Below, piece by piece: positions 7,186-23,529 of a stretch of DNA of 64,000 nt. The notes beneath the pieces are model-generated. The model did no database searches. It worked only from the letters and a program-made list of their open reading frames with translations, and had not been told where the DNA came from. Source of the stretch: Halorientalis marina (GTDB lineage Archaea > Halobacteriota > Halobacteria > Halobacteriales > Haloarculaceae); the NCBI RefSeq assembly GCF_023028345.1, contig NZ_CP095488.1, positions 62,001 through 126,000 of the forward strand. The letters run 5' to 3'. Every line of letters starts with the position of its first letter. The first letter of the stretch is position 1. Made by a program: the position numbers and the translations under genes.

Positions 7186-7491
7186 TTACAGCCAGTCGTC
7201 GGGGAGCTCATCGGCATGGTCCTGTAACAGCTCAAGAAGTGGCCGGATATCGTCGAACTTCGGCCCTTTCACTACCTCATGAGTATCTTGATTCCAGCGA
7301 ATGAATCCCGCTTCTTCCAATACGGGAAGATGCCAGTGATAGAGTTTTGTTTGAAGCTTCTCTAACGTCTTCTCTCCCTCATGAATGTCCTCTGGAACGA
7401 TTATACTGTCTCGCTGTGAATTGTGGTTGAGTAAGGCGACGAGCAACCGCCGGCGATGAATATTCGTCAACGCCTCAAACTGTTTGTCCAT
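7186..7491 (-). CDS. Small winged-helix protein (DUF7344 type)
   Basis: A 101-residue protein from ATG 7491 (MDKQFEALTNIHRRRLL). Frequent haloarchaeal proteins of this kind begin with an F-EAL-N-RRR-LL helix, then a winged helix whose recognition region is LYHWHLPVLEEAGFI, and end in LLELLQDHADELPDDW. These are presumed DNA-binding regulators. The base composition around it is AT-richer than the neighbouring enzymes. It stands alone between an integrase relic and an unassigned stretch, a common place for small regulators of former mobile elements. Target unknown. Confidence 0.7.
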   Translation of the reverse strand: MDKQFEALTNIHRRRLLVALLNHNSQRDSIIVPEDIHEGEKTLEKLQTKLYHWHLPVLEEAGFIRWNQDTHEVVKGPKFDDIRPLLELLQDHADELPDDWL

Positions 7492-7975
7492 TATTATTTT
7501 AGCAAGGAATTGCAATTTATATTTATGATGCTGTTAACAGATGAGTGTTCACTCTATACTGATCTAACTACCCGTGACCGGAACGTGTTCCGGAGCTCTC
7601 GTCGGTGGAACCGGTCCTCAGGTGGTCGGTTCGTGGGGACGGTCCGACGCACCGCGAGGGCCGTCCACGCGGCCCTTCGAACCATATTGACGAACTCCTT
7701 GTACGGCCACCACCAGAGAAACGCGCTGGGTAAAGAGACGCTCGGTGACAATATCTGTGCGAAGACGTTCACTAGTTTCCGCTGATGGTTGATGGAGTAC
7801 GCAGAAGAAACCGGTCGAGACCTGTTGTGCGAGGTCTTCCAAGACCACCGCAGTTACCTCCAAGAAGAACACCGTCCCGACGAGACGAGCACGCTGCGGA
7901 TTGGTTTCAGTCGGTTCCCGGCTGATTCGATGGAAGCGGTAGCTTCAACACGGCGACCGGAGTATACGTGATACC
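7492..7975. other. Unassigned stretch, probably gene debris
   Basis: No convincing gene. On the minus strand, frames covering 7554-7872 contain stretches such as LWWWPYKEFVNMVRRAAW that look more protein-like than random, and the plus frame 7789-7971 gives LMEYAEETGRDLLCEVFQDH. I could not tie either to a family. Both may be fragments of a former transposase or other gene. The promoter of the thiolase gene should lie just before 7976. Confidence 0.35.
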
Positions 7976-9145
7976 ATGGCACGTGCATGTGTGGTCGGTG
8001 CCGGCATGACCCAGTTTGGAGTCCACGACGAGCCACTGGAGGAACTCTTCGCGGACGCCGCGCTATCGGCGATACACGACGCCGGTGTCGACGGCGATGA
8101 AATCGAGGGACTCTACTTCGGTAACGCGATGGGCGGCATCACGGAGAACGACACCCATCTGGCTCCGAAGCTAGCGAGCCATCTCGGGCTTCAGGGAATT
8201 CCTTGCCAGCGGTTCGAGGATGCCTGTGCGACGTCGTCGAACGCTTTCAAACACGCCGTCCAGTCCGTCGAGGCTGGCGTGCACGATGTGGTCCTGGTCG
8301 GGGGCGTCGAGCGGTGTACGGCCGAGACCGGGCTGGACACGGAGGCGATGACCCGGACGTTCGCGAGCGCGTCGCACCGCGAGTACGAACAGCCGACGGG
8401 ACTGACGTTCCCCGGCGTGTTCGCGCTCCTGACGAAGCGGCACATGCACGAGTACGGGACCACTGAGGAACAACTCGCCGAAGTCGCCGTCAAGAACCAC
8501 GCACACGGACAGTACAATCCGAGGGCACACTTCGGCCGCGAGGCGGACGTAGCCGAGGTTCTCGATAGTCCCGTCGTCGCGGATCCGTTCCACCTCATGG
8601 ACTGCTGTCCGTTCTCGGACGGCGCGTCCGCGGTCGTCGTCGTCTCCGAGGACGTAGCCGAAACGTACGACGGCGACCCAGTTGCCGTTTCAGGGATCGG
8701 TCACCGGACGGACGCCGTGCCGATTGCGGACAAGGCCGCGCCGGTCGAAACGACGGCAGCAAAAGAGGCCGCGAACGAGGCCTATGCGCAGGCGGACATC
8801 TCGCCCGACGACGTTGACTTCGCCGAAGTCCACGACTGTTTCACCGGGGCGGAGGTCATCGCGATCGAAGCGCTCGGCCTCGTTCCGGAGGGCGAGGGAG
8901 GGGCGGCCGCGATGCGTGGCGACACGTACCTCTCGGGCGAGATGCCTGTCAACCCGAGTGGGGGGCTGAAAGCCAAAGGGCACCCGATCGGCGCGACCGG
9001 GACGGCACAGATCGTTGAGTTGACCGAGCAACTCCGCGGCAGCGCGGGCGATCGACAGGTCGCTGGCGCGGACAAGGGGATCGCACACAATCTCGGTGGC
9101 GACACGGCTACGGCCGTGGTTACGGTCATGGAGGCCGCACGATGA
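7976..9145 (+). CDS. Thiolase (SCP-x/archaeal acetyl-CoA acetyltransferase type)
   Basis: A 389-residue thiolase. The acylated cysteine is in FEDACATSSNAF near residue 83, the catalytic histidine in GLKAKGHPIGATG near residue 335, and VHDCFT supplies another His motif. The last motif reads AHNLGGDTATAVV, so the second cysteine of classical CxG thiolases is replaced, as is usual in the SCP-x-like archaeal branch. The stop overlaps the ATG of a DUF35 protein (ATGA), the standard archaeal pairing in which the DUF35 protein binds the acyl-CoA and channels it. The gene could cleave a beta-ketoacyl-CoA made by the carboxylase and ligase encoded opposite, or condense acetyl-CoA; context favours cleavage. 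Confidence 0.9.
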   Translation: MARACVVGAGMTQFGVHDEPLEELFADAALSAIHDAGVDGDEIEGLYFGNAMGGITENDTHLAPKLASHLGLQGIPCQRFEDACATSSNAFKHAVQSVEAGVHDVVLVGGVERCTAETGLDTEAMTRTFASASHREYEQPTGLTFPGVFALLTKRHMHEYGTTEEQLAEVAVKNHAHGQYNPRAHFGREADVAEVLDSPVVADPFHLMDCCPFSDGASAVVVVSEDVAETYDGDPVAVSGIGHRTDAVPIADKAAPVETTAAKEAANEAYAQADISPDDVDFAEVHDCFTGAEVIAIEALGLVPEGEGGAAAMRGDTYLSGEMPVNPSGGLKAKGHPIGATGTAQIVELTEQLRGSAGDRQVAGADKGIAHNLGGDTATAVVTVMEAAR

Positions 9146-9537
9146 GCGAAGAACGACTGTCTCCCGTGGCGGATGTTCAGGGGCCGCCCGAGTACGACGA
9201 CTGGCGCGAGTTGCTAGAGGAGGGCGTCCTCCTGGGCACCGAGTGCGAATCCTGCGGGTGGACCACAGCGACGCCGAAACGGCGGTGTGGCGAGTGTGGA
9301 AACGAGCAACTTGAGGGCATCGCCTTGCCGACGACCGGCGACGTGTACAGCGAGACGACGATCAACGTGACGCCGGCCGGGTTCGACGACTCGTACCAAA
9401 TCGCGATCGTCGACCTCGACGGGACGCTCCTCACTGCGCAGATCGACGGGTCCGTCGAGATCGGCGACCGCGTCCGGTTTGGCGACATCGTCACACCCGA
9501 CGGCCGCCCCGCTCCCGTGTTCGAGCCGGTCGAGTGA
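9142..9537 (+). CDS. DUF35 OB-fold/zinc-ribbon partner of the thiolase
   Basis: A 131-residue protein overlapping the thiolase stop by four bases. Residues ~30-55 form a zinc ribbon with CESCGW and CGECGN pairs, followed by an OB-fold region (VYSETTINVTPAGF, IAIVDLDGTLL, IGDRVRF). In archaeal thiolase/HMG-CoA synthase complexes this protein bridges the enzymes and shares the CoA site. The tight translational coupling implies a fixed stoichiometry with the thiolase. No HMG-CoA synthase lies beside it here, so the complex probably serves thiolysis or simple condensation. Cytoplasmic. Confidence 0.88.
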   Translation: MSEERLSPVADVQGPPEYDDWRELLEEGVLLGTECESCGWTTATPKRRCGECGNEQLEGIALPTTGDVYSETTINVTPAGFDDSYQIAIVDLDGTLLTAQIDGSVEIGDRVRFGDIVTPDGRPAPVFEPVE

Positions 9538-9586
9538 ACACCGTCCGACGACGACCCGACTGCGGCCACCGACAATCCAATCACGT

Positions 9587-10663
9587 ATGACTGTTCACGG
9601 CGTCGAGACCCTGCTGACCGAATCGTACCCCTATCCCGAACTCGTCGGCGATCAGCTGTGCAACCTCCACGTGCGTCCCTGCGTAATGATCCCCTTCAGC
9701 GAGGCTGCGTTCCCGGACCTGATGGACGCGTTCCGGGCCGAAGGTAGTTCCCCGCACTGCCACGAGGGTACCGAATCCGCCAGCGAGGAAAACGACCGAC
9801 TGTTGGCCCATGTCGACGACGTTGAGGCCTTCTTCGCGGGCAAACTCTGGACAGAGGTCCTCGATCCGGCACTGTCGGGATTCAGTACAGAGCTCGTCGC
9901 GGCCCCGTATCGAGACACCACGTTCGAGTCCGCAATCCACGCCGACTTCTCCCCCCGCTGGAAGATCGAGGCGTATCTCTTCACTACCGAAGAGCCACCG
10001 GCCGAACTCGAGGCGATCCGGGAGGCAAAGGAGAAAGCCCTCCGATCGCTCCGCGACGGGAGGTATCCGACCGAGCGCACTGCGGAACACAGACTCGCCG
10101 AGATCCGTGCGAAAAGCGAGCTGTTCGGGTATCCCGACTGCTGTACAGAGCAGTTCCTCGAAGAACGGGAAGACCGGTTCGACGTTCTTCTCGAGATCGG
10201 GGCCGAACGGATTGAGGAACTCCAGGCTGAGTGTGAGAGCCGTAGCCAGTTGCAGTCGGCGTTCGAGTCAGAACTCGAGGCCCAGGGACTCCCGCTCCAG
10301 GATCTGAATGTCGAGAGCCGGATCGTCCAGCAACTCGAGTACGTGAATATCGGCAGGTACTTCGAGGACTGGTCGGAGGACGAACTCAGCGAGTTCTACC
10401 AGCAGAAGTCCCGAGACCCGCTCCCAGAGTTCTTCTATGCATTTTTCACCGCGGACTTCTATCCGCACCATCCGCGGTGTGAAGCGGCGATCGAGGTCGG
10501 TCGCCGGATCGAATCTACGCTCAGGGAGAGTGACCCAGCGCTCGTCCCGCTCTACCGGGCTACGCTGATGACGAACGTCTTCTCCTGTCTCGGGTTCGAC
10601 GACCGGCAGGTACACCGGCGACTGCTGAGCGATACCATTGCGACTCACGATGATAAACCGTGA
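9587..10663 (+). CDS. DUF483-like conserved archaeal protein
   Basis: A 358-residue protein; the ATG at 9587 (MTVHGVETLL) is preferred over an upstream frame extension whose sequence is low-complexity. The most telling motif is GYPDCCTEQFLEE near residue 180, a CC-containing signature I associate with archaeal DUF483 proteins. A second His/Cys cluster, FYPHHPRCEAAIEVG, follows near residue 295. The Cys and His motifs suggest metal binding, but the function is unknown. It follows the DUF35 gene by 49 bases in the same direction and converges on the carboxylase operon, so it may belong to the same pathway. Confidence 0.55.
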   Translation: MTVHGVETLLTESYPYPELVGDQLCNLHVRPCVMIPFSEAAFPDLMDAFRAEGSSPHCHEGTESASEENDRLLAHVDDVEAFFAGKLWTEVLDPALSGFSTELVAAPYRDTTFESAIHADFSPRWKIEAYLFTTEEPPAELEAIREAKEKALRSLRDGRYPTERTAEHRLAEIRAKSELFGYPDCCTEQFLEEREDRFDVLLEIGAERIEELQAECESRSQLQSAFESELEAQGLPLQDLNVESRIVQQLEYVNIGRYFEDWSEDELSEFYQQKSRDPLPEFFYAFFTADFYPHHPRCEAAIEVGRRIESTLRESDPALVPLYRATLMTNVFSCLGFDDRQVHRRLLSDTIATHDDKP

Positions 10664-10680
10664 ACGCGGACGTTGCGACG

Positions 10681-11568
10681 TCAGCGATCCGTGACAATGT
10701 CCCGGTAGAGTTGTACTCGTTCGGGGTCGACTGCGGCCGGGAGCGAGGGCATCAAAACGAACGAGTCGGGGAGTGCGTCGAGGTACGTAGTGAGTTCGTC
10801 ACGGAAGACCGCCTCGTCGCGGTCCCAGATCGATTCGGGGAAGCCGCCGCCGGTCGGAACGGGAACGTCCAGGGTGGTGAGGTCGCCGCGCGGCACGACA
10901 TCGAAGACCAACACGTCTACGTCCTCCGCGATTCGGTCTGCTGATTCCTGGAGGTCCCGTGGGAGTCGACCGACCACGGTCAGTTCGTGGTGGTCCGCGA
11001 CGTTGAATATGGCTCCCGCCTCGAGGAGCGCGTCGTCGAGTCGGAGGCCGCGGTCGCGTGCAGCCTCGAGTCCGCGGTAGTCCAGGACGATTCCCGCCAC
11101 CGACCCGCCCTGTGCCCGGAGCAGGTCGGTCAACAACTGGCTCACGTGATGGAGCGTATCAAGAGCGGCGAACTCGTCATCCTCCAACAGGTCGAGCCAC
11201 TCGTCGCCGAAGCAATCCACGCAGAGAGTGACTGGGTCCGGCACGAGCGAGAGGAGTGGTTCGTCGCGGACGTCCGCTGTTATGTTCACAGTCTCGACGA
11301 ACGCGTCCGTCGGCTCGCCGAGTGAATCGGAGAAGTCGACGTCGGTAATCGGGCCCGTCGTCGCCGCCTCGAGGTCCTGTTCGAGCACCTCCCGGCTGGA
11401 GACCGCGATCAGGTCAGGCGAGACGAGGTCGGCGGTCTGCCTGATCGCCGCCGACCACCCGATCGGATCACTCCACTTCGGCTCGGGCATCTCGTCGCTG
11501 ATTCGCGCGGCGTAGGCTTCGAACAGCGGCACGTGCACGTAATTTTCGTCGATAGCACTGAGATTCAT
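10681..11568 (-). CDS. Conserved protein, URO-D-like barrel suspected; last gene of the carboxylase operon
   Basis: A 295-residue protein starting MNLSAIDENYVHVPLFEAYA, 48 bases after HyuB and on the same strand. No signal peptide or membrane segment. Phrases such as VPDPVTLCVDCFGD, AGGIVLDYRG-like VAGIVLDYRGLE and LTVVGRLPRDLQ recall the uroporphyrinogen-decarboxylase/cobamide-methyltransferase barrel, but I cannot prove this. Its place and size (about 32 kDa) correspond to the fifth, loosely bound subunit gene of acetophenone carboxylase operons; that equivalence is positional inference, not sequence proof. Confidence 0.5.
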   Translation of the reverse strand: MNLSAIDENYVHVPLFEAYAARISDEMPEPKWSDPIGWSAAIRQTADLVSPDLIAVSSREVLEQDLEAATTGPITDVDFSDSLGEPTDAFVETVNITADVRDEPLLSLVPDPVTLCVDCFGDEWLDLLEDDEFAALDTLHHVSQLLTDLLRAQGGSVAGIVLDYRGLEAARDRGLRLDDALLEAGAIFNVADHHELTVVGRLPRDLQESADRIAEDVDVLVFDVVPRGDLTTLDVPVPTGGGFPESIWDRDEAVFRDELTTYLDALPDSFVLMPSLPAAVDPERVQLYRDIVTDR

Positions 11569-11616
11569 GAGACGGTCTGTGTGTGAACGGGAGATAAAGG
11601 CTCCCCCTGGCCTGGG

Positions 11617-13968
11617 TCAGTCGTCCTCGATGTCGGCCTTGCACTCGGGTTTCGGCGGATAGATCGGCGTGTCGAAGAGGTGCGGGTTCTGGGCGCGGAA
11701 GAGGTTCATCGGCACCGGCTGGAGCGTCTCCGGCGTCATGACGGCTTCGGGCGTCCCGGCGTAGATCTCCTCTTTATCGTTCCAGTGCCCGAAGAAGGGG
11801 ATGTCCTCGGGCGGCGTCTCGGTTTCCCAGTCGTCGACGAACTCGTCGAAGGGAACACCCTCCTCAAGCCGTTGCTCTCGCTGTTCCGCTCGACGCTCTT
11901 CGGTTTCCTCTTCGTCGACCAACATCGTTTCCTCGTCGAACGAGACGTGGTAGATGTTTTCCAGGACCCACTCCGAGATGAGCTCGTCGTCATACTCTTC
12001 GATCACCGACTCGGGATCGCGTTCGAGCGGGTCGCCGAGGCCGCCACCGGCGCCGTGTGAGAGCCAGTAAACCTCGCCCTCCTCGGCGAACTCCTGCTGG
12101 AGTCCCAGATCCCAGGTAGAGTACTCGCCGTCGAGCGGTTTCTTTTTCATCAACTCGGAGATGTCGTACTCCAGTTCCTCCGGGTTCTCGTCCATTTCGT
12201 CGAAGACGTTAGTGCCCTTGATGCGGCCGCAGGGAATGGACGGAGACGCGTAGCCGCCGTAGAGGCCGTTGACCGACGGGAACCGGGATCCGATTCCGGT
12301 AGCCAGCCAGGCCCATGCCGGCGTGTCCTTGTGTGTGAACACTTGCTGGTGGCCGTGGCCACCACGATACCGCCCGAAGCCCTGTAGGTCCTTCATTAGC
12401 CGTGTCCGAGTGAGGGCCACGAACGGGTACTCCTCTTCGTAGTGTTCGGTCTCTCCCATGTCGCCCATGGCACAGAAGACCGCCGCCTGGGAGTGGAGGC
12501 CGTCGCGGTTCCACCGGGCCCCGCCGGGCATGGTGTTGATGTCGGTCACGATGTTCCCGACGAAATCATCGTGTTGGGTGAATCCGCCATAGGTCCAGCC
12601 GTTAATCATGTTCCACTGGTTGGCGTGGATGTCGGTCGCTTCGGACTCGTTGTCCTGCACGAAGTCGGGGTACATCGCCTTCATCATCCCCTGTTCCATC
12701 GCCGAGAACGAGGGGAAAAACGTCATCATGCTCTGAGCGTTGGGTACTTCCCGCGTGCAGTGGAGCGTCGACCCGCGGTCAGCCTCGATCGAAACTGGCT
12801 CGAAGATGGCCTGGTTCCGGGGCAGGTCGGGCCAAATGAAGTTGAGGAAGACCGGGATCAACATTCCCTTGAGCGACGAGAGGATCGTATTGTTTGCCCG
12901 GTCGTCGAACTCGGGGGCCGATCCACGGTAGTCGGCGGTCAGTTCGTCGCCGTCGATCGTTATTTCGCAGGGAACCTTGATGAGACAATCGTCCTTCAGC
13001 GTGTTGTCCGCGAAGGTCGTCTGTCGATACGTTCCGTCGGGGATGGACTCGATGCGGTTTCGCATCTCGGCCTCGGTCGACTCCAGCGAGTGCCGCAATG
13101 CCCCGACAACGTACTTCGAGCCATACTGGTCGACCGCGTCCTCGACGCGTTCGACCATCCGTCTGGTCGACGCCAGGCGAGCGCGGTGGTCGTTCTTGAC
13201 CAGTTTCTTGTCCCGGACCGAGTTCTGGAAGAACGTCAGGAGTTCTTCATCGAGTTCGTAGTCCGTACCAATCTTCATCGGCTGGACCTTGAGCCCCTCG
13301 TCGTAGGGACTCTCTGCGTCGCCCGGCATCCCGCCTGGTTCGGTCGAGCCGTTCTCCCCCTCGTGGATGACGCAACTGGCCCACGCGATGAGTTCGTCGT
13401 CGTCGAAGATGGGGAGGAACGTGCTCTGGTCGGTGTTGTGGACGTTTCCATACCGGGCGTCGTTGTGGTGGAAGATGTCCCCCTCGTTGATCTCGTAGTC
13501 CGGGTCCTCCCGCCACTTCTTCATGATGTGTTTGATCGGCTGTGACTGGAGGGCGATGAACAGCAGGACGCCGCTGGACGACGCGACGGCCATGTCGCCC
13601 TCGCGCGTAAAGATACCGTTGATGAGGTCACCCCACTTGGCGCCCGGCGACGAGGCAATGTGCATCACCATCTCCCGGGCCTCGTTTGCCGTCGCCTGGA
13701 GGCGATTCTGGACGATCATCCTCGTCACGTCGTCGTTGGCGACCTCCTCCATCGCGGCCTCCTCTAAGTCCGTCCGGGGTTCCATGGAGTGGTCCTCCAT
13801 GATATCGAGGTCGGGCCCCTCGAACATTTCCTCGCCTTCGAGGAACTCCGTCATCTCTTCTTCGAGGCTCTGCTCGCTCGATTTTTCCGACGGGGGGGTC
13901 GTTTCGGCAACGCCGCCGTCCGGTTCGGTTCGCTCGGAGTCGGTCGGGTCGGTGTCGTTCTCGTTCAT
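11617..13968 (-). CDS. hyuB: HyuB-type large subunit (beta) of a ketone carboxylase/hydantoinase-family enzyme
   Basis: A 783-residue protein from ATG 13968 (MNENDTDPTDSERTEP); the open frame continues upstream but reads as low-complexity sequence of the neighbouring gene. After an acidic N-terminal tail (~80 residues) come HyuB hallmarks: GDIFHHNDARYGN, the central DYRGSAPEFDD, NNTILSSLKGM, and the C-terminal GGLGDPLERDP. Family members are hydantoinase/oxoprolinase B and the beta subunits of acetone and acetophenone carboxylases, which hold the carboxylation site. The acidic tail and a long C-terminal extension after GDPLERDP (~170 residues) are larger than in hydantoinases and fit the carboxylase branch. 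It is the fourth carboxylase gene of the operon, 55 bases after HyuA2. Confidence 0.85.
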   Translation of the reverse strand: MNENDTDPTDSERTEPDGGVAETTPPSEKSSEQSLEEEMTEFLEGEEMFEGPDLDIMEDHSMEPRTDLEEAAMEEVANDDVTRMIVQNRLQATANEAREMVMHIASSPGAKWGDLINGIFTREGDMAVASSSGVLLFIALQSQPIKHIMKKWREDPDYEINEGDIFHHNDARYGNVHNTDQSTFLPIFDDDELIAWASCVIHEGENGSTEPGGMPGDAESPYDEGLKVQPMKIGTDYELDEELLTFFQNSVRDKKLVKNDHRARLASTRRMVERVEDAVDQYGSKYVVGALRHSLESTEAEMRNRIESIPDGTYRQTTFADNTLKDDCLIKVPCEITIDGDELTADYRGSAPEFDDRANNTILSSLKGMLIPVFLNFIWPDLPRNQAIFEPVSIEADRGSTLHCTREVPNAQSMMTFFPSFSAMEQGMMKAMYPDFVQDNESEATDIHANQWNMINGWTYGGFTQHDDFVGNIVTDINTMPGGARWNRDGLHSQAAVFCAMGDMGETEHYEEEYPFVALTRTRLMKDLQGFGRYRGGHGHQQVFTHKDTPAWAWLATGIGSRFPSVNGLYGGYASPSIPCGRIKGTNVFDEMDENPEELEYDISELMKKKPLDGEYSTWDLGLQQEFAEEGEVYWLSHGAGGGLGDPLERDPESVIEEYDDELISEWVLENIYHVSFDEETMLVDEEETEERRAEQREQRLEEGVPFDEFVDDWETETPPEDIPFFGHWNDKEEIYAGTPEAVMTPETLQPVPMNLFRAQNPHLFDTPIYPPKPECKADIEDD

Positions 13969-14023
13969 TGGTATCAGGTGTCGGATTGTGTCGGGTGTCG
14001 TAGCGGGCTGGTTGTCGTTTCGA

Positions 14024-16153
14024 TCATTGCTGTCGAAGGTAGGTGACGTCGTGGCGTGTCCGCTCGAACTCCCACCCGTCGTTGACGACGATACTGGTTT
14101 CCGGGTGCTCGACGATCGCAGGACCCTCGATGGTGCCACGGTCGAATTCGGAGAAGCGATACACCGGCGTCTCGACGAACTCGCCGTCGAAGTAGCACTC
14201 CCGCGATCGCGTCGACGCCGGCGACTCGGCGCCGCCGTCAGCGACGGCAGTGCTGCTCTCACCAGTGTACTCCAGTCGGGGTTGCTCGACGTGGGACTGG
14301 ACTCGGACCGTCCGCAGGTTGACGTCCGAGGACGGCATGTGTGCCTCCTCGCCGAAGTTCTCGCCGTAGGAGTCGCGGAACTGCTTGATCAGTCTCAGCA
14401 GGTCCTCCTTGCTACTGAGCGTGTCAACCGGCACTTCGGTCGTCGTCGTCTGTAGCTGGACGCCGTAGTGCATGTCGACCTCGACAGTGTGTTCGACCCT
14501 GTCGGGAGCGTACCCTTCGTCGATGAGATCCTGCCTCCCCTCCGTCTTGAGTTCCTCGACGATCGAGTTGAACCGGTCGTAGTCGTCGAAGTACGACTGG
14601 GCCTCGCCGTCGAAGATGTTCATGTACACCGATTGCTCGTACATGTGCATCTGGTCGAGGTTGCCGGCGCCGGCGGCCGACAGGACGGGGCTGAATGGCG
14701 GGATGATCACCTGTTGGATGTCGAGTTCCTCGGCGTACCCGCAGGCGTGGGTCGGACCGGCACCGCCGTAAGACAGTACCGAGAAGTTCCGCGGGTCGTA
14801 CCCTTTGAGCGAGATCTCGTTGAACATGGTCTGGGCCGCCTTCGTGTCGACGATTTGCCGTGCGGTCGCGGCCGCCTCCTCGACGCTTACGTCCATCGGG
14901 TCCGCGAGGTCGCGGCGGACGGCCCGTTCGGCGAGTCGGCGCTCAAGATCGAGTTCTCCGCCCCAGAAGTAGTCGGGGTTAATGTATCCGAGGACAACGT
15001 CGACGTCGGTAACCGTCGCGCGGCGACCGCCGCGGTTGTAGCAGGCTGGGCCTGGGTCAGAGCCAGCGCTTTCGGGGCCCACGCTGACGACGTCCTCCGC
15101 GTTGTCGTAGCTGAGGACGGAGCCGCCACCGGCGCCGATGGTCTTCATATAGACCATCGGGATGTTGATCAGCCACCGGTCGATGATCGGCTCGTACTCG
15201 TACAGCGAGACCTCGCCCTCCGTGACGGCCCCGATGTCGAAGCTCGTGCCGCCCATGTCGGTGGTGATCAGGTTCTCGTCTTCGAGTTCTTCGGCCAGTT
15301 GTTGGGCGGCTCCGAGCCCAGCAACCGGCCCGGCGTGCATCGTCTGGATGGCGTAGGTCTTCCCCAGTTGTGCCATGCCAGAGGTGTTGTGGACCAACTG
15401 GAGCGGCTTCTCGTAGCCGTTCTCGCGGAGCACGGACTGCATGTCCTGGAGCCCCTCCCGCATGGTGCGGTGGAGGTAGGCGTTGATGACCGTCGCGTTG
15501 CTCCGCATGTACTCGCCGTTTTTCCCCGTTACCCGGTGAGAGAGAACCACGGGTGTCGATCCGAGCACATTGCTCGGGTACTCCTCCTGGATGACCTCCT
15601 CGACGAGGAGTTCGTGTGCCGGGTTAGCAGTACTGTTCAGGAGGACTACAGCGATGGCGCGAACACCGTCGTCGACGAGGTCGTTGACGATTTCCCGGAT
15701 CTCCTCGCGGCTCGGTTCCATCAGCGCGTCACCCTTGTAGTCGACGCGTTCCCGGAGGCCGTAGCGATGCTCTGCTGGCACGATCGGCTCGGGCCGGTCC
15801 GCGCCCGGGATATCGTTCTGGTCCTCGATCGGGAGGCCGTCACCGTACTGTCGGCCCCGACCGATCTGGATCGCGTCCTCGTGACCCTCGGTCGTGATCA
15901 ACCCGACCCGCTCGCCGGAGCGCTCGATGAGCGCGTTCGTCCCCAGAGTCGTCCCGTACCGAACGGAGTCGACCTCCCCGAGGACCGTCTCCACGCCGAC
16001 CCCGAGTCGCTCGGCCGCGGCTTCGAGCGCGTTCATGAACCCCTCAGTGAGGTCGTGATGGGTAGTCGGAGCCTTCGTCTCGACGCGGTCGTCACCCCAC
16101 GCGACGACGCAGTCGGTGAACGTGCCACCGATGTCGACGCTGACGCGTTTCAT
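14024..16153 (-). CDS. hyuA: HyuA-type ATP-dependent subunit (second copy) of the ketone carboxylase
   Basis: A 709-residue protein from ATG 16153, which overlaps the stop of the gamma gene (ATGA). The N terminus MKRVSVDIGGTFTDCVV is the first phosphate motif of the acetate-kinase/HSP70-like ATPase fold; TTDMGGTSFDIGAV is the second, and GAGGGSVLSYD the adenosine-contacting glycine region. The C-terminal FSVLSYGGAGPTHACGYA is typical of HyuA/oxoprolinase A. In ketone carboxylases such subunits use ATP to phosphorylate bicarbonate and the enolate of the ketone. Having two different HyuA subunits plus a small zinc subunit sets this locus apart from ordinary hydantoinase or oxoprolinase pairs. 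Confidence 0.88.
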   Translation of the reverse strand: MKRVSVDIGGTFTDCVVAWGDDRVETKAPTTHHDLTEGFMNALEAAAERLGVGVETVLGEVDSVRYGTTLGTNALIERSGERVGLITTEGHEDAIQIGRGRQYGDGLPIEDQNDIPGADRPEPIVPAEHRYGLRERVDYKGDALMEPSREEIREIVNDLVDDGVRAIAVVLLNSTANPAHELLVEEVIQEEYPSNVLGSTPVVLSHRVTGKNGEYMRSNATVINAYLHRTMREGLQDMQSVLRENGYEKPLQLVHNTSGMAQLGKTYAIQTMHAGPVAGLGAAQQLAEELEDENLITTDMGGTSFDIGAVTEGEVSLYEYEPIIDRWLINIPMVYMKTIGAGGGSVLSYDNAEDVVSVGPESAGSDPGPACYNRGGRRATVTDVDVVLGYINPDYFWGGELDLERRLAERAVRRDLADPMDVSVEEAAATARQIVDTKAAQTMFNEISLKGYDPRNFSVLSYGGAGPTHACGYAEELDIQQVIIPPFSPVLSAAGAGNLDQMHMYEQSVYMNIFDGEAQSYFDDYDRFNSIVEELKTEGRQDLIDEGYAPDRVEHTVEVDMHYGVQLQTTTTEVPVDTLSSKEDLLRLIKQFRDSYGENFGEEAHMPSSDVNLRTVRVQSHVEQPRLEYTGESSTAVADGGAESPASTRSRECYFDGEFVETPVYRFSEFDRGTIEGPAIVEHPETSIVVNDGWEFERTRHDVTYLRQQ

Positions 16154-16563
16154 TCTTCTCCCTCCAGGTATCGGTTCCGGAGCCAGTCCAGGTCCGGCTG
16201 GATCTCGTTTTCCGGCGGGTGGCCCGGCGGCAGGTACTCCGTCTCGACCTGGACGCCACAGCCGGGACAGTAGTACTCGAGGATGCGACACCAGTCCGAG
16301 TCCGGTGTGTAGGTGTACTGGTACTCGTCGCCGATGAGCGGTCGGTGGATCTCCTCCGGGTCCCGTTCGTTGACGAGGAGCCCGTGTTTGAAGTTCTCCG
16401 TCGCGTCCTCGAGCGTTTCGGCACAGCGCCGGCAGACCCACTGTTCGGCATCCAGGTCGATGCCGAGGTACGGCGTCACGGGGACGACCGCTTCGTCCTC
16501 GACGCCGACGTCGGCTTCGATGCCATCAGCGTTCGTCTCTGATTCTGATTCGCTTTGAGCCAT
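16150..16563 (-). CDS. Small zinc-binding gamma subunit of an acetone/acetophenone-type carboxylase
   Basis: A 137-residue protein between the two HyuA genes, overlapping both: its ATG shares one base with the upstream TAA and its TGA overlaps the next ATG. The acidic N-terminal tail is followed by CRRCAETL (~residues 44-51), a middle region with WCRILEYYCPGCG (~92-104) and VETEYLPPGHPP. The paired CxxC motifs and the EYYCPGCG...E(Y/A)xPPG block are the signature of acetone carboxylase gamma subunits as I know them, which bind zinc. No other family with this layout comes to mind. Its presence is the strongest single reason for calling the operon a ketone carboxylase. Confidence 0.8.
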   Translation of the reverse strand: MAQSESESETNADGIEADVGVEDEAVVPVTPYLGIDLDAEQWVCRRCAETLEDATENFKHGLLVNERDPEEIHRPLIGDEYQYTYTPDSDWCRILEYYCPGCGVQVETEYLPPGHPPENEIQPDLDWLRNRYLEGEE

Positions 16564-18497
16564 TATGATTCCTCCATCGTGATGATCATGTGTCCGAATT
16601 CGTTCACTGTAGCACTCCAGTCGGGTGGGATCGCGTACGTCGTGGACGTGTCCCGGAGGACGGCGGGGCCGTCGACGGTAACCTGGCTGGTGACGTCCCG
16701 GTAGTCGTAGAGGGGGGTCACGTCGGATACCGGTCCTTCTGTCGTCTGCCAGCGGATCGTCGCCTCGTCGGCCGGATCGATCCCCGAGCCGTCCTCAAAG
16801 CGCGGGCTGAAGGAGTGGGTCGGAAGGTGTGCACGCGCTCGCAGTCGGAGCGTGACCTGGTCGTACTCGTCGAGGTAGTTCTCCATTTTCGTCTCCGCGT
16901 CGCCGGGACTGACCTCGACGTGTGACGTCGCCTCGTTACCCGTCACGCCGGTGATTGTCCAGACGAAGTCGGCCTCGTCGTCCTCGAATCCCTCGCCCTC
17001 CATGTCGCGGCGTGCACGCTGACGCAATCGCCCGATCTCCTCGTCGAGGTCGTCCAGATCGGATCGATCCGCAGCGCTGACGTGGTAGTCGTGGACGACG
17101 TCGCTGAACCCGACGCTGTGGGCGCTGAACACCGACGGATAGGAGGGCACGACAATGCGATCGATGCCGGCCGACTGTGCGACCCCGCAAGCGTGTGTCG
17201 GCCCCGCGCCCCCGTAGACAACGAGGGATGCGTCCTCCCGCGAGACGCCCGCGTCGTCGAGTTTGTCGACGATGAAATCGCCGATCTGGGCTTCGAGGCG
17301 GTTCCGGATCATGAACGCCGCCTCCTCGGGCGGGACGCCGAGAGGGTCGGCAACGTTCTCTTCAATGACCGCATGCGCGCGGTCGGCGTCCAGCGAGATT
17401 TCCTCCCCTGCGAAAAAGCCCGGGGACATAATCTCCGAGACGACATCGGCGTCGGTGACCGTCGCCCGCCGGCCCCCGAGACCGTAGCAGGCCGGGCCGG
17501 GGTTTGCGCCCGCGCTCTCGGGCCCGAGTTGCAGGTCGCCATCCTCGACTTTGGCGACCGTCCCGCCACCCCCGCCGACCGGGTGGAGCTTCCGCATCGG
17601 GAATGACAGTTCGACATCGTCGACGGTTCCGAACTCGTCCTGTGCGATGTCGCCGTCGTGGATGAGGGCGACATCGGCGCTCGTCCCGCCGATGTCCAGC
17701 GCGACGGCGTCGGGTGCTTCGTAGAGCGACGCGATCTCCGCCGCGCCCTGAAGCCCCGCGGACGGCCCGGAGTTGTAGGTGCGGATTGCGGTCGTCTTGG
17801 CGACGCGGTTCGACGTGCCGTCGTTACAGAAGATCAGGAGTGGGTTCTCGTAGCCCTGGTTTCGGAGGAAGTCCTCGGCCTTGTAGAGGAACTTCCCGAC
17901 GGACGGGTTGAGGTACGCGTCGACCAACGTCGTCACGAGTCGGCGCTCGTCGTCCGTGTCGCTCGTCAATTCGTGCGAGAGGTGTAGCGGGACACTCCCG
18001 AGATAATGACGGGGCTGTTCTTCGAGGAGGGCGGTCCGAACCGCGCGCTCGTCGTCGAGAGAGTGCATCCCGACCACGATGTTGTCGCTCAACTCCTCGG
18101 CGAGTTCGCCGTATCGCTGGGAGATTTCCCGCGTGTCTGACGCGGTCGCTAACTCCCGTCTCGCCCCCTGTGCCAGGATGTCCTGGAGGAGACTCTCGTC
18201 CCGGTCTTCGACAGCTCTGAGTAGTTCATCTGGTGCCAGTGCCCCGACGTTCGCTCCCTCCCGTTCGATCACCGCGTTCGTGCCGATCGTCGTCGAGTAC
18301 CGAATGCAGTCGACCGTCGTGAGGAACTTCCGGAGATCCTCCACGAACAGGTCGGCGGCCTGCTCGATTATTTCTGAGAAACAGACAGTCAGGTCGTGCG
18401 GCGTCGTCGAGGTCTTGAGCGTCCACACCTCGTCGCCGCGACGAACGGTCCCGTCGGTGAACGTTCCGCCAGTGTCGATGTCGATCGTCGTTTCCAT
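16563..18497 (-). CDS. hyuA: HyuA-type ATP-dependent subunit (first copy) of the ketone carboxylase
   Basis: A 644-residue protein. ATG 18497 (METTIDIDTGGTFTDG) is preferred over an in-frame TTG at 18509. ATPase motifs are IDTGGTFTDG, LDIGGTSADVALI and GGGGGTVAKV, and the late family motif is LVVYGGAGPTHACGVA. It is clearly paralogous to the HyuA at 14024 but diverged throughout, as the alpha and alpha-prime subunits of acetophenone carboxylase are. The stop TAA shares its last base with the gamma ATG. It lies 14 bases after the CoA ligase, so ligase, both HyuA, gamma and HyuB read as one transcript. Confidence 0.86.
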   Translation of the reverse strand: METTIDIDTGGTFTDGTVRRGDEVWTLKTSTTPHDLTVCFSEIIEQAADLFVEDLRKFLTTVDCIRYSTTIGTNAVIEREGANVGALAPDELLRAVEDRDESLLQDILAQGARRELATASDTREISQRYGELAEELSDNIVVGMHSLDDERAVRTALLEEQPRHYLGSVPLHLSHELTSDTDDERRLVTTLVDAYLNPSVGKFLYKAEDFLRNQGYENPLLIFCNDGTSNRVAKTTAIRTYNSGPSAGLQGAAEIASLYEAPDAVALDIGGTSADVALIHDGDIAQDEFGTVDDVELSFPMRKLHPVGGGGGTVAKVEDGDLQLGPESAGANPGPACYGLGGRRATVTDADVVSEIMSPGFFAGEEISLDADRAHAVIEENVADPLGVPPEEAAFMIRNRLEAQIGDFIVDKLDDAGVSREDASLVVYGGAGPTHACGVAQSAGIDRIVVPSYPSVFSAHSVGFSDVVHDYHVSAADRSDLDDLDEEIGRLRQRARRDMEGEGFEDDEADFVWTITGVTGNEATSHVEVSPGDAETKMENYLDEYDQVTLRLRARAHLPTHSFSPRFEDGSGIDPADEATIRWQTTEGPVSDVTPLYDYRDVTSQVTVDGPAVLRDTSTTYAIPPDWSATVNEFGHMIITMEES

Positions 18498-18511
18498 TAT
18501 TGAGCTCAATG

Positions 18512-20101
18512 TTAAGCAATCTGTCGTGTTTCTTCTTCCCAGTACGGCTCGCGGAGCGCCTTCTTGTCGACCTTTCCGTAGGGTGTGGTCGGTAGTTCGT
18601 CCACGAACTCGACGCTCTTCGGTTTCTTGTAGTCTGCAAGCCGCTCGTCCGCGAATGAGTTGACGTCCGATTCGGTAACGTCGCTGTCGCCCTCGGTGAC
18701 GACGACGGCGTGGACGGCTTCGCCCCAGTCGTCGTGAGGGACGCCGATGACCGCAACGTCGTTGACGTCGGGATGTTTGATCAGTTCGTCTTCCACATTG
18801 GTCGTGTAGACGTTCATCCCGCCGGTGACGATCATGTCGCTGTCCCGGTCGAGGATGTAGACGTAGCCGTCCTCGTCCATCTTCCCGACGTCGCCGGTCC
18901 TGACCCAGCCGTCGACGAGCGTCTCTTCTGTCTTCTCGGGCAGTTCGTGATAGCCGACCATTCGGTACGGTGCCCGCAGGAGGATCTCCCCCTCTTCGCC
19001 TGGCGGAAGCGGTCCAGTGTCTGCCTTGTCGTCGATCGGCGCGATCTGGACGTCGACCATCACGGTCGGCTGTCCGCAGGAGTCGAGTTTCTGCCCGGCG
19101 TCGACCGTGTGGTCCGTCTTAGGGAGCGTCGTCCCGACGTTCGGAACCTCGCTTTGTCCGTACAACTGGACGAAAACCTGTCCGAAGACGTCGAGTGCCT
19201 CCTCGAGTCGCTCGCGTGCGATCGGCGCGGCGCCGTAGACGAGCGTCTCGAGCGAGGACACGTCAGTCGACTCGAGGCGGTCGTGATCCAGCACGCGATA
19301 AATCATCGTCGGGACCATCCACGACCACGTGATCTCTTCCTCCTCGAGGTGTCGCAGGAAATCCTCTGCGTCGAACCCCTGCGTGATGGTCGCGTGTGCG
19401 CCGCGTATCATCCCTGCCGAGAGGGCGTACCCCGCCGAATGGGGCAGCGGCGTCATCAGGAGCATCCGCTCGTCGGGATTGATGTCCAACTCGATGACGT
19501 GGGCGAGGAGATCAGTCGCAAGGCTGTAGTGGGTGTGTTTGGCTCCCTTCGGCTTCCCGGTCGTCCCGCCGGTGTACTGGAAGAGCGCGATATCATCTGG
19601 GTCGACTTCCACGTCGGGGGCGGTCCCCGCGTGTGCCTCGACGAGCCGCTCAGACGCGGCCATCCCGTCCGGTGCCTCCTGGCCCAGTACGACGACTTCC
19701 TCGAGCGACGGAATCTCCTCAGCCAGCCCCCCGATCGTCTCCGTGAACTCCTCGCCGACGACGACCGCTCGCGCCCCCGAGTCCGAGATGATGTGTTCGT
19801 ACTCGTCTTCGGTCAGCATGTCGTTCATCGCGACCTTCGCGTACCCGCCGCGGACACAGGCGAGGTCGGCCAGCACGTAGCCCAGTTGGTTCGACATCAT
19901 GAGACCGACACGATCGCCCTTCTCGATCCCGCGCTCGGCGAGAGCATTTGCGAGCGCGCCGGCGCGATCCCACGCCTCCCTGTAGCTGATGGACTCGTCG
20001 TCGAACGTCGCCAAGGGATCGTCACCGTACTTCCGACACGCGCGTTCTAAAAGCGCGTTCAACGTCGGTACTTCCGACACGAACTGGTCATTAGCATCCA
20101 T
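18512..20101 (-). CDS. Acyl-CoA synthetase (AMP-forming), first copy
   Basis: A 529-residue ANL-family ligase starting MDANDQFVSEVPTLN. Motif A3 is FQYTGGTTGKPKGAKH (~residues 172-187), A5 is LYGQSE, A8 is GWVRTGDVGKMDEDGY, and the catalytic lysine near the end is in TPYGKVDKKAL. It activates a carboxylic acid to its CoA thioester via an acyl-AMP. Placed directly before the carboxylase subunits it is the natural counterpart of the benzoylacetate-CoA ligase encoded with acetophenone carboxylase, so a beta-keto acid is the favoured substrate; a free fatty or aromatic acid remains possible. Cytoplasmic. Confidence 0.87.
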   Translation of the reverse strand: MDANDQFVSEVPTLNALLERACRKYGDDPLATFDDESISYREAWDRAGALANALAERGIEKGDRVGLMMSNQLGYVLADLACVRGGYAKVAMNDMLTEDEYEHIISDSGARAVVVGEEFTETIGGLAEEIPSLEEVVVLGQEAPDGMAASERLVEAHAGTAPDVEVDPDDIALFQYTGGTTGKPKGAKHTHYSLATDLLAHVIELDINPDERMLLMTPLPHSAGYALSAGMIRGAHATITQGFDAEDFLRHLEEEEITWSWMVPTMIYRVLDHDRLESTDVSSLETLVYGAAPIARERLEEALDVFGQVFVQLYGQSEVPNVGTTLPKTDHTVDAGQKLDSCGQPTVMVDVQIAPIDDKADTGPLPPGEEGEILLRAPYRMVGYHELPEKTEETLVDGWVRTGDVGKMDEDGYVYILDRDSDMIVTGGMNVYTTNVEDELIKHPDVNDVAVIGVPHDDWGEAVHAVVVTEGDSDVTESDVNSFADERLADYKKPKSVEFVDELPTTPYGKVDKKALREPYWEEETRQIA

Positions 20102-20270: not shown

Positions 20271-20969
20271 TCACTGGTCGATTGACTCTCCGAAGAGGAG
20301 GCCGAACATGCTGCTCTCAGTCCGGCGGAGTTGCTCGCTGAACGACGGCTGGCTGATGCCCAGCTCCGCCGCGACGTCCTCGCTCGTGGCCCGCTGTGGC
20401 ACCTCGAAGTAGCCCATCCGGTACGCCGTCTCCAGCAATTCAAGTTGGCTCTCGGTGAGTTTTCCCCGGTAGACGCGTTTCATCGAATCGAGGCCGAGCG
20501 GATAGCCCGCGCTCTCCGTCGGCGACGTTTCGAGGAGTTCGAACGCCTCGAACCCGTCTTCGATACTCGTGGCGAGGTCCTTGAGGTGGTTCCAGTCCCT
20601 GACGACCGCGACGATGGTCAGTCGGCCGTTCTCCGCGACCAGCCGGTACGGAATCGCGTCGTTTTCCGCTAGTGCCGTCAGGATGAAAGGATCTTCCTCC
20701 TCCACGAAGCCGACGAGGTGGTGCGTCTCGGACGCGGGCGAGAGTTTCCAGAGTTCAATGACGTCGATGTGCCCGACTTCGTCGAGTTCGTCATGGATCG
20801 ACTCACCTGCCCCGCCGCTGATCGTGATGAACTCGATCCAGTGTCGCTCCCCCTTGTAGATCGCGTTGTCCAATTCGACGGTGTCGACGCCGGGGATGCA
20901 GTCAATCGGCGTCGTAAACGCACCCGATTGTTTGACCCCGAACTTCACCCGGAGGACTCTCTCGTCCAT
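20271..20969 (-). CDS. HTH-10 (Bat-type) regulator of the catabolic island
   Basis: A 232-residue one-component regulator, MDERVLRVKFGVKQSG. Residues ~1-155 are the sensor-like region; residues ~165-225 the HTH-10 domain (KLTESQLELLETAYRMGYFEVP, signature LTESQLELL; recognition region GISQPSFSEQLRR). It follows the second CoA ligase by three bases and precedes the first one, so it is cotranscribed with a ligase and sits between two catabolic transcription units. Control of both by a CoA ester or ketone is likely but unproven. Confidence 0.82.
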   Translation of the reverse strand: MDERVLRVKFGVKQSGAFTTPIDCIPGVDTVELDNAIYKGERHWIEFITISGGAGESIHDELDEVGHIDVIELWKLSPASETHHLVGFVEEEDPFILTALAENDAIPYRLVAENGRLTIVAVVRDWNHLKDLATSIEDGFEAFELLETSPTESAGYPLGLDSMKRVYRGKLTESQLELLETAYRMGYFEVPQRATSEDVAAELGISQPSFSEQLRRTESSMFGLLFGESIDQ

Positions 20970-20972: not shown

Positions 20973-22538
20973 TCACCAGTACGGCTTGCGGAGCGTCTTC
21001 TTGTCGATCTTACCGTACGGTGTCTCCGGGAGTTTCGCAACTTCGTCGATGGAGTCGGGCACCTCGTACTCCGCCAGATTGTCGCGGCAGAACTCCAGAA
21101 GGCCATCCCTGTCCACCTGGTTCCCCGACGCCGGAACGATCACGGCCTTCGGGAGCTGATCGGTTTCTCTGCGGGGTTTCGACGTCCCGCGTCGAGCGAC
21201 GTCCTTGTCCCGGGGAACGCCGATAACCGCGACCTGGGACACGGCGGGATGGCGCTGGACGACATCTTCGACCTCCGTCGAGTAGATCGGCTGCCCATCG
21301 CGCAGGATCACGTCGTCGACCCGGTCCAGAACGACGAGTCGCCCCGCATCGTCGATCCGGCCCAGGTCACCCGTCAGAATCGGCCCCGATTCGGCCGCCG
21401 CCCCGTCCCCATTCAGATATTCCACCATCGCGTACGGCGACCTCACCGCGATCTCGCCGACATCATCCCCCCACTCGTACTCGTCCGACAGCACCTCGAT
21501 GTTCGCCAACTGGACGGGGTAGCCGGCGGAATTGAGTCCCGCTTCGTTCGCCGGATCGTGTTCGTGTTTCGGCAGGACCGTGACGAGGTTCGGCACCTCG
21601 GCAAGCCCGTAGAGCTGAATGAACACCTCGCCGAGCTGTTCGAGCCCCTCCTTGAGCGTCGTCGTCGGGATCGGCGCCGCGCCGTAAATCAACGTCCGTA
21701 ACGAGTCCGTCTCGTGTTCCGCGAGTTGCGGCGATTCAAGCAGTTCGGCGATCATTGTCGGGACCGCGAACGTCGCCGTGACCCGCTCCTCTTCGATAGT
21801 CTCGAGAACACGCTCCGTATCAAAGCCGTCTTGGAGGAGCACCGTTCCGCCCTGGGCGAGGACACCGCGGGCGCAGTACCCCGCCGAGTGGCCAAGCGGC
21901 GTCGTCAACAGCATACGCTCGTCGCGGTGGAAATCCAGCTCGGAGATGTGGGAGTAGATGTTCGATACGAGCCCTTCGTGTGTGTGTAACGCACCCTTCT
22001 GAGTCCCTGTCGTCCCGCTCGTGTACTGTGCAACAACGCCATCAGTCGGCGAGATCTCGACGTCGGGCGGCTCGTCGTCGGCCTTGGAAATCACCCTCTC
22101 GTAGGCCTGGAACCCGATGGGGAGACTCTCCCCGTCGGCGACGCCGACTATGAACTCGAGATCTGTTTCGGAGTCGGACAGGATCTCCTTCGCGATGTCA
22201 AAATACGATGGCCCGACGACAAGGATGTCAACGTCGGCATCATTGACGATATACCCGATGCTCTCCTCGTCGAGGCTGGCGATCAGCGGAACGAGGATGC
22301 CGCCCGCCTGTGTGGTCGCCACCTCCGTGACGAGGTACTCGTAGCGGTTGCGCATCAGGAGACCGACACGGTCGCCGACCCCCAGCTGCATCTCACGAAG
22401 CGCGTTCCCGAACGCTCCTGCCTCCTGCCCAAGTTCACCGTACTGCAAACGGGTTCGTGCGGACTGGACTGCGATGCTGTCCGCGTAGCGGTCGAACAGC
22501 TTGGCGTAGAATTCGTCGAGAGTTACGTTCATACCCAT
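20973..22538 (-). CDS. Acyl-CoA synthetase (AMP-forming), second copy
   Basis: A 521-residue ANL-family ligase, MGMNVTLDEFYAKLFD. Motif A3 is QYTSGTTGTQKGALHTH, where the usual proline before Lys-Gly is Gln; A5 is LYGLAE; A8 is TGDLGRIDDAGRLVVLD; the catalytic lysine is in TPYGKIDKKTL. It is a diverged paralogue of the ligase at 18512. The two may act on different acids of the same pathway, for instance the starting acid and the carboxylation product. A TTTAAAAC stretch ~30 bases before the ATG at 22538 suits a TATA box and a nearly leaderless transcript. Confidence 0.85.
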   Translation of the reverse strand: MGMNVTLDEFYAKLFDRYADSIAVQSARTRLQYGELGQEAGAFGNALREMQLGVGDRVGLLMRNRYEYLVTEVATTQAGGILVPLIASLDEESIGYIVNDADVDILVVGPSYFDIAKEILSDSETDLEFIVGVADGESLPIGFQAYERVISKADDEPPDVEISPTDGVVAQYTSGTTGTQKGALHTHEGLVSNIYSHISELDFHRDERMLLTTPLGHSAGYCARGVLAQGGTVLLQDGFDTERVLETIEEERVTATFAVPTMIAELLESPQLAEHETDSLRTLIYGAAPIPTTTLKEGLEQLGEVFIQLYGLAEVPNLVTVLPKHEHDPANEAGLNSAGYPVQLANIEVLSDEYEWGDDVGEIAVRSPYAMVEYLNGDGAAAESGPILTGDLGRIDDAGRLVVLDRVDDVILRDGQPIYSTEVEDVVQRHPAVSQVAVIGVPRDKDVARRGTSKPRRETDQLPKAVIVPASGNQVDRDGLLEFCRDNLAEYEVPDSIDEVAKLPETPYGKIDKKTLRKPYW

Positions 22539-22802: not shown

Positions 22803-22886
22803 GCTATTCGGACCGAGATCCGATTTTGGGAGGAGAAGGAGGACGAAGGGGAGAATGAGAGTGGAGAGAGAAACGGAATGGAGGGG

Positions 22887-23523
22887 ACACACCACGTTTC
22901 CGGTGAAAGAGCGAACTGATTTGCGAGCTGGATCGGACACCGGGTTTCCGGTGAAACGGACGTTCAAGGGGTTTCTCTGGAGTGGAACGGAGTCCATGGG
23001 AGTACGAACCGGTGAAAGAACCGACCGATTCGACTGGAGATTTAGGCATAGAGAGAATGTGAAGACCGGTCACGACCGTTCACTCGATCAACTTATCGAG
23101 AGGTGGAGACACACACACCACGTTTCCGGTGAAATCGGTGACAGAGGGGTCCCGCATCCTGAAAATGGCTGTACTAAATACTCTGGAAGTGTCTGTTTAG
23201 GTATGTATGTCTGACGAAGATATAAGTGGTATGGAAGTGTTATACTCCATTAAGTCACTCGCAACTGAAGAGTAGAAGCGAGCTCGCTCGCGAGTATCTC
23301 CAGTTGAACCAGTCGAAAACAGTGTTCTCTCGAGCTCTCTGTGCTGTTCGTCCATCGTGCTACTTGCCAGTAAGAGGGCTGCGTTCGATAGAACCGCGTT
23401 TCTTCTGAATCGGTCCCCCGCATTTCCTGTGCCCTCACCCTCTCTTTCTAACTGTTTCACCGGAAACGTGGTGTGTGTGTGTCGGGGAAAAAGCCAAGTC
23501 ATTTCACCGGAAACGTGGTGTAT
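22887..23523. other. oriC: Replication origin: inverted origin-recognition boxes flanking an AT-rich stretch
   Basis: Boxes with the core CACCGGAAACGTGGTGT lie in inverted orientation on both sides. On the left, 22887-22908 and 23113-23134 read as the reverse complement, with a variant at 22936-22956 and a half box near 23006. On the right, 23455-23476 and 23502-23523 read forward. The 22-base boxes at 22887, 23113 and 23455 are identical when oriented. Between them 23160-23250 is AT-richer than its surroundings and may be the unwinding element. The arrangement next to cdc6 is the standard haloarchaeal origin. The box at 23502 ends six bases before the cdc6 ATG, so Cdc6 binding should also affect its own promoter. 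Confidence 0.85.
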
Positions 23524-23529
23524 AATCGA

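Follow-up and report, generated by a model that had tools for sequence, protein, structure and literature searches.

What does a six-gene operon on a haloarchaeal megaplasmid encode, when its products resemble both ketone carboxylases and hydantoinases? The operon lies on the minus strand at 10681-20101 of a 64,000-nucleotide stretch of Halorientalis marina (contig NZ_CP095488.1; G000:C2:62001-126000), which we call the window. The genome comprises four contigs (4.75 Mb), and the replicon that carries the gene set, contig C2 (420,925 bases), is a megaplasmid. The genes follow one another in the order acyl-CoA ligase, alpha', gamma, alpha, beta and a 295-residue protein. We consider it likely that they specify a biotin-independent, ATP-dependent ketone carboxylase of the acetophenone carboxylase (Apc) type, which would have five subunits and form part of a second class within that type. 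Judging from the residues predicted to line the ketone pocket, the substrate would probably be a different ketone from acetophenone.

The core subunits provide the first line of evidence. When compared by phmmer with all chains of the Protein Data Bank (PDB), each of the four has acetophenone carboxylase 5L9W as its top match (scores in Table 1). For alpha, the other enzymes trail well behind, with 306-307 bits for oxoprolinase, 305 for N-methylhydantoinase and 296-299 for acetone carboxylase. For alpha', Apc chain B follows chain b at 270 bits and the best non-Apc chain reaches 181, while acetone carboxylase scores 155 bits against beta and 30.9 against gamma. The top NCBIfam models for these subunits are likewise ApcA, B, C and D. 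An earlier reading of the bare sequence (the original prediction) had proposed a ketone carboxylase of the acetophenone-carboxylase type from the gene order, the two HyuA proteins and the gamma subunit, and these matches support it.

The order alpha'-gamma-alpha-beta-epsilon is indeed that of apcABCDE (PMC5214803, cited here and below for part of its text), so the window set and ApcABCDE of Aromatoleum aromaticum (core 5L9W, epsilon 9FOU) both have five subunits in identical order. Reported masses for ApcA to ApcE are 70, 15, 80, 75 and 32 kDa (PMC5214803), and only beta stands out in the window, being 14 kDa heavier. All three ATP motifs of ASKHA modules are present in alpha and alpha' alike, those of alpha' being DTGGTFTD, DIGGTSAD and GANPGP. 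Alpha also carries the fingerprint RERVDYKG at residue 134 (published as [RK]ERiDsxG, with Y in place of s), and no [RK]ERxDxxG fingerprint is found in alpha'. Gamma has the four zinc-site cysteines C44, C47, C99 and C102 (CRRC..CPGC), which are invariant in eight aligned sequences.

The original prediction missed a fifth subunit, epsilon, which is the 295-residue protein. Its tie to ApcE is partly transitive, through other sequences, and partly structural, from a modelled UroD fold. The gene occupies the apcE position, after beta, and its product has a conserved HY-x-W motif. An AlphaFold2 model from 33 sequences has a predicted local distance difference test score of 93.4, and Foldseek returned 54 PDB matches for it at E <= 0.001. 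UroD-family structures, namely uroporphyrinogen decarboxylases and one methyltransferase, occupy the first 20 places, and rank 23 (E 5.8e-7, probability 1.00, TM-score 0.60) goes to the solved ApcE structure 9FOU. The UroD fold of ApcE is not new here, since 9FOU was released on 2025-12-24, and our search of the open-access literature found no paper joining acetophenone carboxylase with uroporphyrinogen decarboxylase; ApcE is named together with acetophenone in only two papers there, from 2016 and 2017.

The transitive part of the argument runs through other operons. In a phmmer search of 6282 open reading frames (ORFs) from 91 fetched loci, the 295-residue protein has a homologue at 6e-67 in the archaeal metagenome-assembled genome L050 and weak matches in L073, L106 and L110, each time to the gene that follows beta. 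A profile built from the window and L050 proteins matches the gene downstream of beta in bacterial operons at 98.5% and the UroD-family genes found at the same operon position (UroD-type epsilons) at 93.8%, but haloarchaeal UroD-like genes at only 10.5%. A profile of seven UroD-type epsilons in turn matches 9FOU at 6e-23. The protein is present in four of 142 family genomes (G000, G722, G724 and G748), and when 146 family genomes were searched for the close gamma type, it turned up in these same four. In a sample of 392 genomes from the phylum, the 295-residue protein is found in one, and no match to it was found among 72,556 plasmid records. A seemingly separate epsilon family after beta in L045, L061, L066, L071 and L093 was rejected, as its members proved to be short-chain dehydrogenases. 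The comparisons above identify a fifth subunit which is labelled hypothetical in the records of bacterial relatives.

Whether the window enzyme is the Aromatoleum enzyme itself is a separate question, and the ketone pocket speaks to it. Seven residues of Apc alpha have been proposed to form the acetophenone site, namely L81, F281, N282, P285, I333, Q344 and T345 (PMC5214803). Window alpha has T, M, H, P, I, Y and M at these positions, so two of seven are kept and five differ. Because of these differences, and because the curated NCBIfam cut-offs are missed (see below), the window enzyme is no orthologue of Aromatoleum Apc by sequence but a member of a second class, common in bacteria. We use class I for Apc proper and class II for the window type, both names being our own. 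We know of no class II member that has been assayed.

Our bacterial survey covered the best 80 of at least 427 gamma relatives, which were selected by likeness to the window gamma and are therefore biased towards its own kind. In 73 of these 80 loci the alpha pocket reads T..[HD], four have an Asn pattern, and three are too truncated to read; Asp replaces the pocket His only in L050. Of the 80, 70 have all four core genes in the order alpha'-gamma-alpha-beta, and eight others are cut-off contigs. A short epsilon is present in 57 of the 73 class II loci and a UroD-type one in a single locus (L073), while UroD-type epsilons were found in two of the four Asn-pattern loci and none in the other two. 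Bacterial class II operons thus share the T-x-H-P-I pocket, the gene order and, mostly, the short epsilon with the window. Their carriers include Alicyclobacillaceae (L073), Sulfobacillus (L065), Rhodococcus, Burkholderiales and Nevskiaceae, with alphas 43-50% identical. One groundwater betaproteobacterial metagenome-assembled genome (G708; loci L082 and L136) contains eight ApcB-model matches, six of them above 110 bits and one almost reaching the curated cut-off, so this single genome has many enzymes of the Apc type.

A tree of HyuA proteins places both window subunits. It was made by a quick method (to which its support values belong) and holds 57 rows: 26 alpha, 26 alpha' and five others. 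The reference for Apc is L136, with no named Aromatoleum row; this is a near-orthologue by its NCBIfam scores against the cut-offs (ApcA 1243/1250, ApcC 1490/1500, ApcD 1391/1500 and ApcE 391/450 bits). Window alpha' falls within the 26-row alpha' clade that includes L136 (support 100), and window alpha falls within a 19-row, all-alpha class II set (support 100). The five other rows lie together on one side of a branch (support 99): an acetone-carboxylase-type alpha from the same genome (L043), a Sinorhizobium alpha (L137) and the genome's three further HyuA proteins, which fall outside both Apc-type sets. Both window proteins are therefore apart from the acetone-carboxylase- and hydantoinase-type rows, and the grouping with hydantoinases or oxoprolinases that would have refuted the original prediction is not seen. 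The link of class II to Apc lies in the shared alpha' clade, as far as these alignments go.

The L043 alpha pairs with the L137 alpha (support 100), whose Sinorhizobium set adjoins an annotated acetone carboxylase gamma. L043 itself (G000:C1:26001-46000) has, at 7304-12293, an acetone-carboxylase-type set in the order alpha-beta-gamma. All three branches of the family (Apc-type, Acx-type and further HyuA) seem to be present in this genome, and all three were also noted in Aromatoleum (PMC5214803).

Several results weigh against an Apc-type ketone carboxylase. None of the core subunits reaches its NCBIfam cut-off, with 369/1250 bits for ApcA (NF042960), 134/250 for ApcB, 585/1500 for ApcC and 311/1500 for ApcD (NF042976), and beta has 783 residues against 684 in the Apc chain. 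The pocket replacements in alpha are matched by changes in alpha', where the published bicarbonate-pocket residues E248, D274 and K281 become N, D and D (numbered on L136), so one of three is kept and two differ; Lys281 is retained in L096, L119 and L136. By sequence, the 295-residue protein has no Pfam, NCBIfam (the ApcE model included) or PDB match, an epsilon profile of the window's class alone does not find 9FOU, and hhalign gives a probability of 0.0 for two haloarchaeal epsilons against L136 ApcE. In the survey, no epsilon was detected at threshold in 20 of the 80 loci, many on short contigs, and L088 and L129 have class II gamma-alpha-beta with no recognisable alpha' in about 10 kb of upstream flank. 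In the HyuA tree, the acetone-carboxylase and hydantoinase rows branch off between the alphas of the two classes (two changes). Taken by themselves, the alpha rows therefore do not link class II with Apc; the two classes of alpha may still have a single origin. Finally, no ligase, thiolase or dehydrogenase neighbour was found at threshold in 33 of the 53 loci with enough flank, a count made at a strict threshold and with no background control.

The alternative that survives best is a true acetophenone carboxylase, which would convert acetophenone to benzoylacetate, with the operon ligase acting as a benzoylacetate-CoA ligase. The subunits and their order, as in apcABCDE, and the presence of a ligase are what this would require. 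Benzoylacetyl-CoA is an intermediate of phenylpropionate oxidation, so the thiolase and downstream steps could be common to both pathways. The pocket argues otherwise, since window alpha has T, M, H, Y and M where Apc alpha has L81, F281, N282, Q344 and T345, and the non-Apc pattern occurs in 73 of the 77 readable alphas in a set picked by gamma likeness. There is also no match to BoxB, the benzoyl-CoA epoxidase, in the genome; routes from benzoyl-CoA other than BoxB exist. We therefore regard acetophenone, one of the substrates entertained by the original prediction, as an unlikely one.

An ATP-dependent amidohydrolase (hydantoinase- or lactamase-like) with accessory subunits is a far weaker candidate. 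The kinase chemistry would be the same, alpha still matches 5-oxoprolinase at 306 bits and N-methylhydantoinase at 305, and the alpha tree puts class II no nearer to Apc alpha than to the hydantoinase and acetone-carboxylase rows. However, the Apc match of alpha is 230 bits better, alpha' sits in the Apc alpha' clade with the genome's three other HyuA proteins outside both Apc sets, and hydantoinases are described, in the part of the source used, as two-subunit enzymes with no gamma, alpha' or epsilon (PMC5214803). Weakest of all, and scarcely credible, is an acetone carboxylase variant of three subunits that has extra genes alongside: gamma belongs to Pfam Acetone_carb_G and its homologues are auto-annotated as acetone carboxylase subunit gamma, and AcxABC has HyuA, HyuB and a zinc gamma in common with the window, but gamma reaches 117 bits against Apc and 31 against Acx, the operon order is not alpha-beta-gamma, Acx has neither alpha' nor epsilon and occupies another branch, and the genome has its separate Acx-type set on C1.

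For an Apc-type ketone carboxylase, a mechanism can be proposed by analogy with Apc. Alpha would phosphorylate the ketone enol and alpha' would phosphorylate bicarbonate, each on its own ASKHA site, with beta and gamma as the scaffold of the core. The UroD-fold barrel of epsilon would dock onto this core and couple the two half-reactions, allowing CO2 to reach the enol phosphate. The operon ligase could then activate the resulting beta-keto acid, and a thiolase could cleave the beta-ketoacyl-CoA. Both the two-kinase scheme and the need for epsilon come from the Apc literature (PMC5214803). Epsilon may itself host the carboxylation step, because its fold is that of a cofactor-free decarboxylase.

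A more ambitious proposal, which we offer as speculation with the odds against it, has several parts. Class II would be functionally distinct and would carboxylate ketones that are hydrophobic, non-aromatic or longer and that are supplied by secondary-alcohol dehydrogenases (of the short-chain type in bacteria, possibly of an F420 luciferase-like type in archaea). Epsilon would do more than assist conformational changes: it would be the actual chamber in which the C-C bond forms, running UroD-like chemistry in the carboxylating direction. Haloarchaea would have acquired two enzymes of this kind in separate events.

Regarding haloarchaea, the ApcB model at E 0.001 matches 32 of 391 genomes of the class. 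Seven of these, the window genome and six others, have strong matches (133-164 bits), and the remaining 25 reach at most 47 bits, many of them in frames whose length (166-180 residues) is that of acetone carboxylase. The six other strong operons (L037-L042) are of class I. They share five genes and the relative order alpha', gamma, alpha, beta with the window operon, but they have a UroD-like gene of 318-322 residues between alpha' and gamma, an Apc-like pocket (F N P I in all four of the alphas that were aligned) and a separate clade. Both of the extra genes scanned (L047 and L038) pass the Pfam URO-D cut-off, and the one on a Haloterrigena alkaliphila plasmid is annotated as uroporphyrinogen decarboxylase family.

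Window alpha and L050 alpha form their own branch (support 100/100), and forcing the haloarchaeal alphas (six of 28 rows) into one clade is rejected by the approximately unbiased test (p 5e-51). Haloarchaea therefore have two types with separate histories. Only one archaeal record appears among the best 80 of the at least 427 gamma relatives, and because the enzyme is rare in haloarchaea and broad in bacteria, the sequences favour a gain from bacteria.

The suggestion that an archaeal version would extend this enzyme class holds in part. The window shows that an archaeon can have all five subunits of the widespread class II, and the pocket residues point to a different ketone; up to 2017, the Apc branch counted only a single characterised enzyme (PMC5214803). 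An earlier trace of the type is in print, as an 'Acetophenone carboxylase' from a Dead Sea fosmid was listed in 2011 as a transfer, with a best match to Azoarcus at 45% identity (PMC3236060, cited for part of its text). Our search of the open-access literature found nothing on acetone or acetophenone carboxylase with haloarchaea or Halobacteriales, and the one paper it gave on ketone carboxylase and archaea concerns Chloroflexi. Haloarchaea with a class II operon may feed on ketones via the predicted carboxylation, which raises the questions of which ketones they use in this way and what catalytic role the UroD-fold epsilon plays. Operons filed under 'hydantoinase' or 'acetone carboxylase gamma' can also be re-annotated.

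Table 1. Features of the operon and its surroundings, in window coordinates.
Feature	Position	Strand	Evidence
AMP-forming acyl-CoA ligase, 529 residues, 58.0 kDa, first operon gene	18512..20101	-	Pfam AMP-binding 261 bits and AMP-binding_C
alpha' (ApcA-type HyuA), 644 residues, 69.7 kDa	16563..18497	-	Pfam Hydantoinase_A; PDB 5L9W_b 309 bits
gamma (ApcB-type), 137 residues, 15.7 kDa	16150..16563	-	Pfam Acetone_carb_G 117 bits; 5L9W_C 117.5 bits
alpha (ApcC-type HyuA), 709 residues, 78.1 kDa	14024..16153	-	Pfam Hydantoinase_A; 5L9W_B 537 bits
beta (ApcD-type HyuB), 783 residues, 88.7 kDa	11617..13968	-	Pfam Hydantoinase_B; 5L9W_A 285.5 bits
epsilon (modelled as a divergent UroD-fold barrel), 295 residues, 32.4 kDa	10681..11568	-	model and Foldseek
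HTH_10/BAT regulator just upstream of operon, possible operon regulator (by position)	20271..20969	-	Pfam HTH_10 66 bits, BAT 29 bits
second AMP-forming acyl-CoA ligase	20973..22538	-	Pfam AMP-binding 235 bits
thiolase, 389 residues, convergent with operon, candidate for beta-ketoacyl-CoA cleavage	7976..9145	+	NF004720 427.6 bits (cut-off 420)
OB-fold/zinc-ribbon partner of thiolase, 131 residues	9142..9537	+	Pfam OB_ChsH2_C 35 bits; zf-ChsH2 below cut-off
uncharacterised protein, 394-residue ORF, start uncertain, convergent with epsilon	9479..10663	+	homologues syntenic in relatives

The operon genes lie where the original prediction had placed them, with overlaps or short gaps; the spacing down the operon is 14, -1, -4, 55 and 48 bases. 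We adopted starts shorter than the longest ORFs for beta (13968, picked by the analyst), alpha (16153) and alpha' (18497), as the longest ORFs of beta and alpha run into the preceding genes. Chance or mis-framed ORFs were ruled out by the gene overlaps, the G+C content at third codon positions and homology, the main-domain Pfam E-values being 5.5e-34 to 6.7e-82. The assembly is listed with 7% contamination. Contamination as the source of the operon is unlikely because its six proteins are acidic (D+E 17-25%, K+R 6-8%), as expected of a haloarchaeon, and because operon and window have similar G+C contents (63.1% and 62.2%). The family also includes relatives with 47-81% identity, which likewise speaks against it.

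The first operon gene had been predicted to be a beta-keto-acid CoA ligase. An AMP-forming acyl-CoA ligase does adjoin the core, as Pfam shows, but the beta-keto-acid specificity was an over-reach, and no NCBIfam equivalog scored above its cut-off among the 25 of 109 matches listed. The ligase is upstream of alpha' in the window, whereas the AMP-binding gene of L136 is downstream of epsilon. At the other end of the operon, the 9479-10663 product has no Pfam match at 0.001 and only a sub-threshold match to DUF483.

Two relatives of genus g16, G724 and G722, have the operon on their largest contig and share the order ligase (53% identity), a further ligase (31%), alpha' (71-72%), gamma (78%), alpha (81%), beta (76%) and epsilon (47-48%), and both have a 54% homologue of the window 9479-10663 gene convergent with epsilon. 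An acetone-carboxylase-type set is just upstream in the stretch fetched from G724, and the end of one is present in G722. In G724 (L150), a second HyuB at 6298-9012 follows the Acx-type gamma and is 87% identical to the Acx-type beta of the window genome. The archaeal L050 has a gene for a luciferase-like (F420-type) oxidoreductase at 12583-13590, between beta and epsilon. F420-dependent secondary alcohol dehydrogenases are members of the luciferase-like superfamily, which is only a hint that this gene encodes one. Compared with the six luciferase-like proteins of the window genome, it gives only 28-38% matches over at least 150 residues.

Across the 53 loci with enough flank, a ligase was found near nine Apc-type operons, a thiolase near nine and a short-chain dehydrogenase near eight, and Neorhizobium has a CoA transferase near its operon. 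These neighbours fit a route from secondary alcohol to ketone, beta-keto acid and beta-ketoacyl-CoA, followed by thiolysis. SCP2-like lipid-transfer genes are present close to class II operons in L150 (12610-13029), L152 (4327-4746) and L046 (19621-20016), i.e., in two haloarchaea and on a Rhodococcus plasmid, and only there among the window and the 96 loci scanned.

Beside the operon, at 22880-24729 of the window, repeated 'acaccacgtttccggtgaaa'-like motifs precede an orc1/cdc6 gene, and this region is probably the replication origin of the 421-kb replicon.

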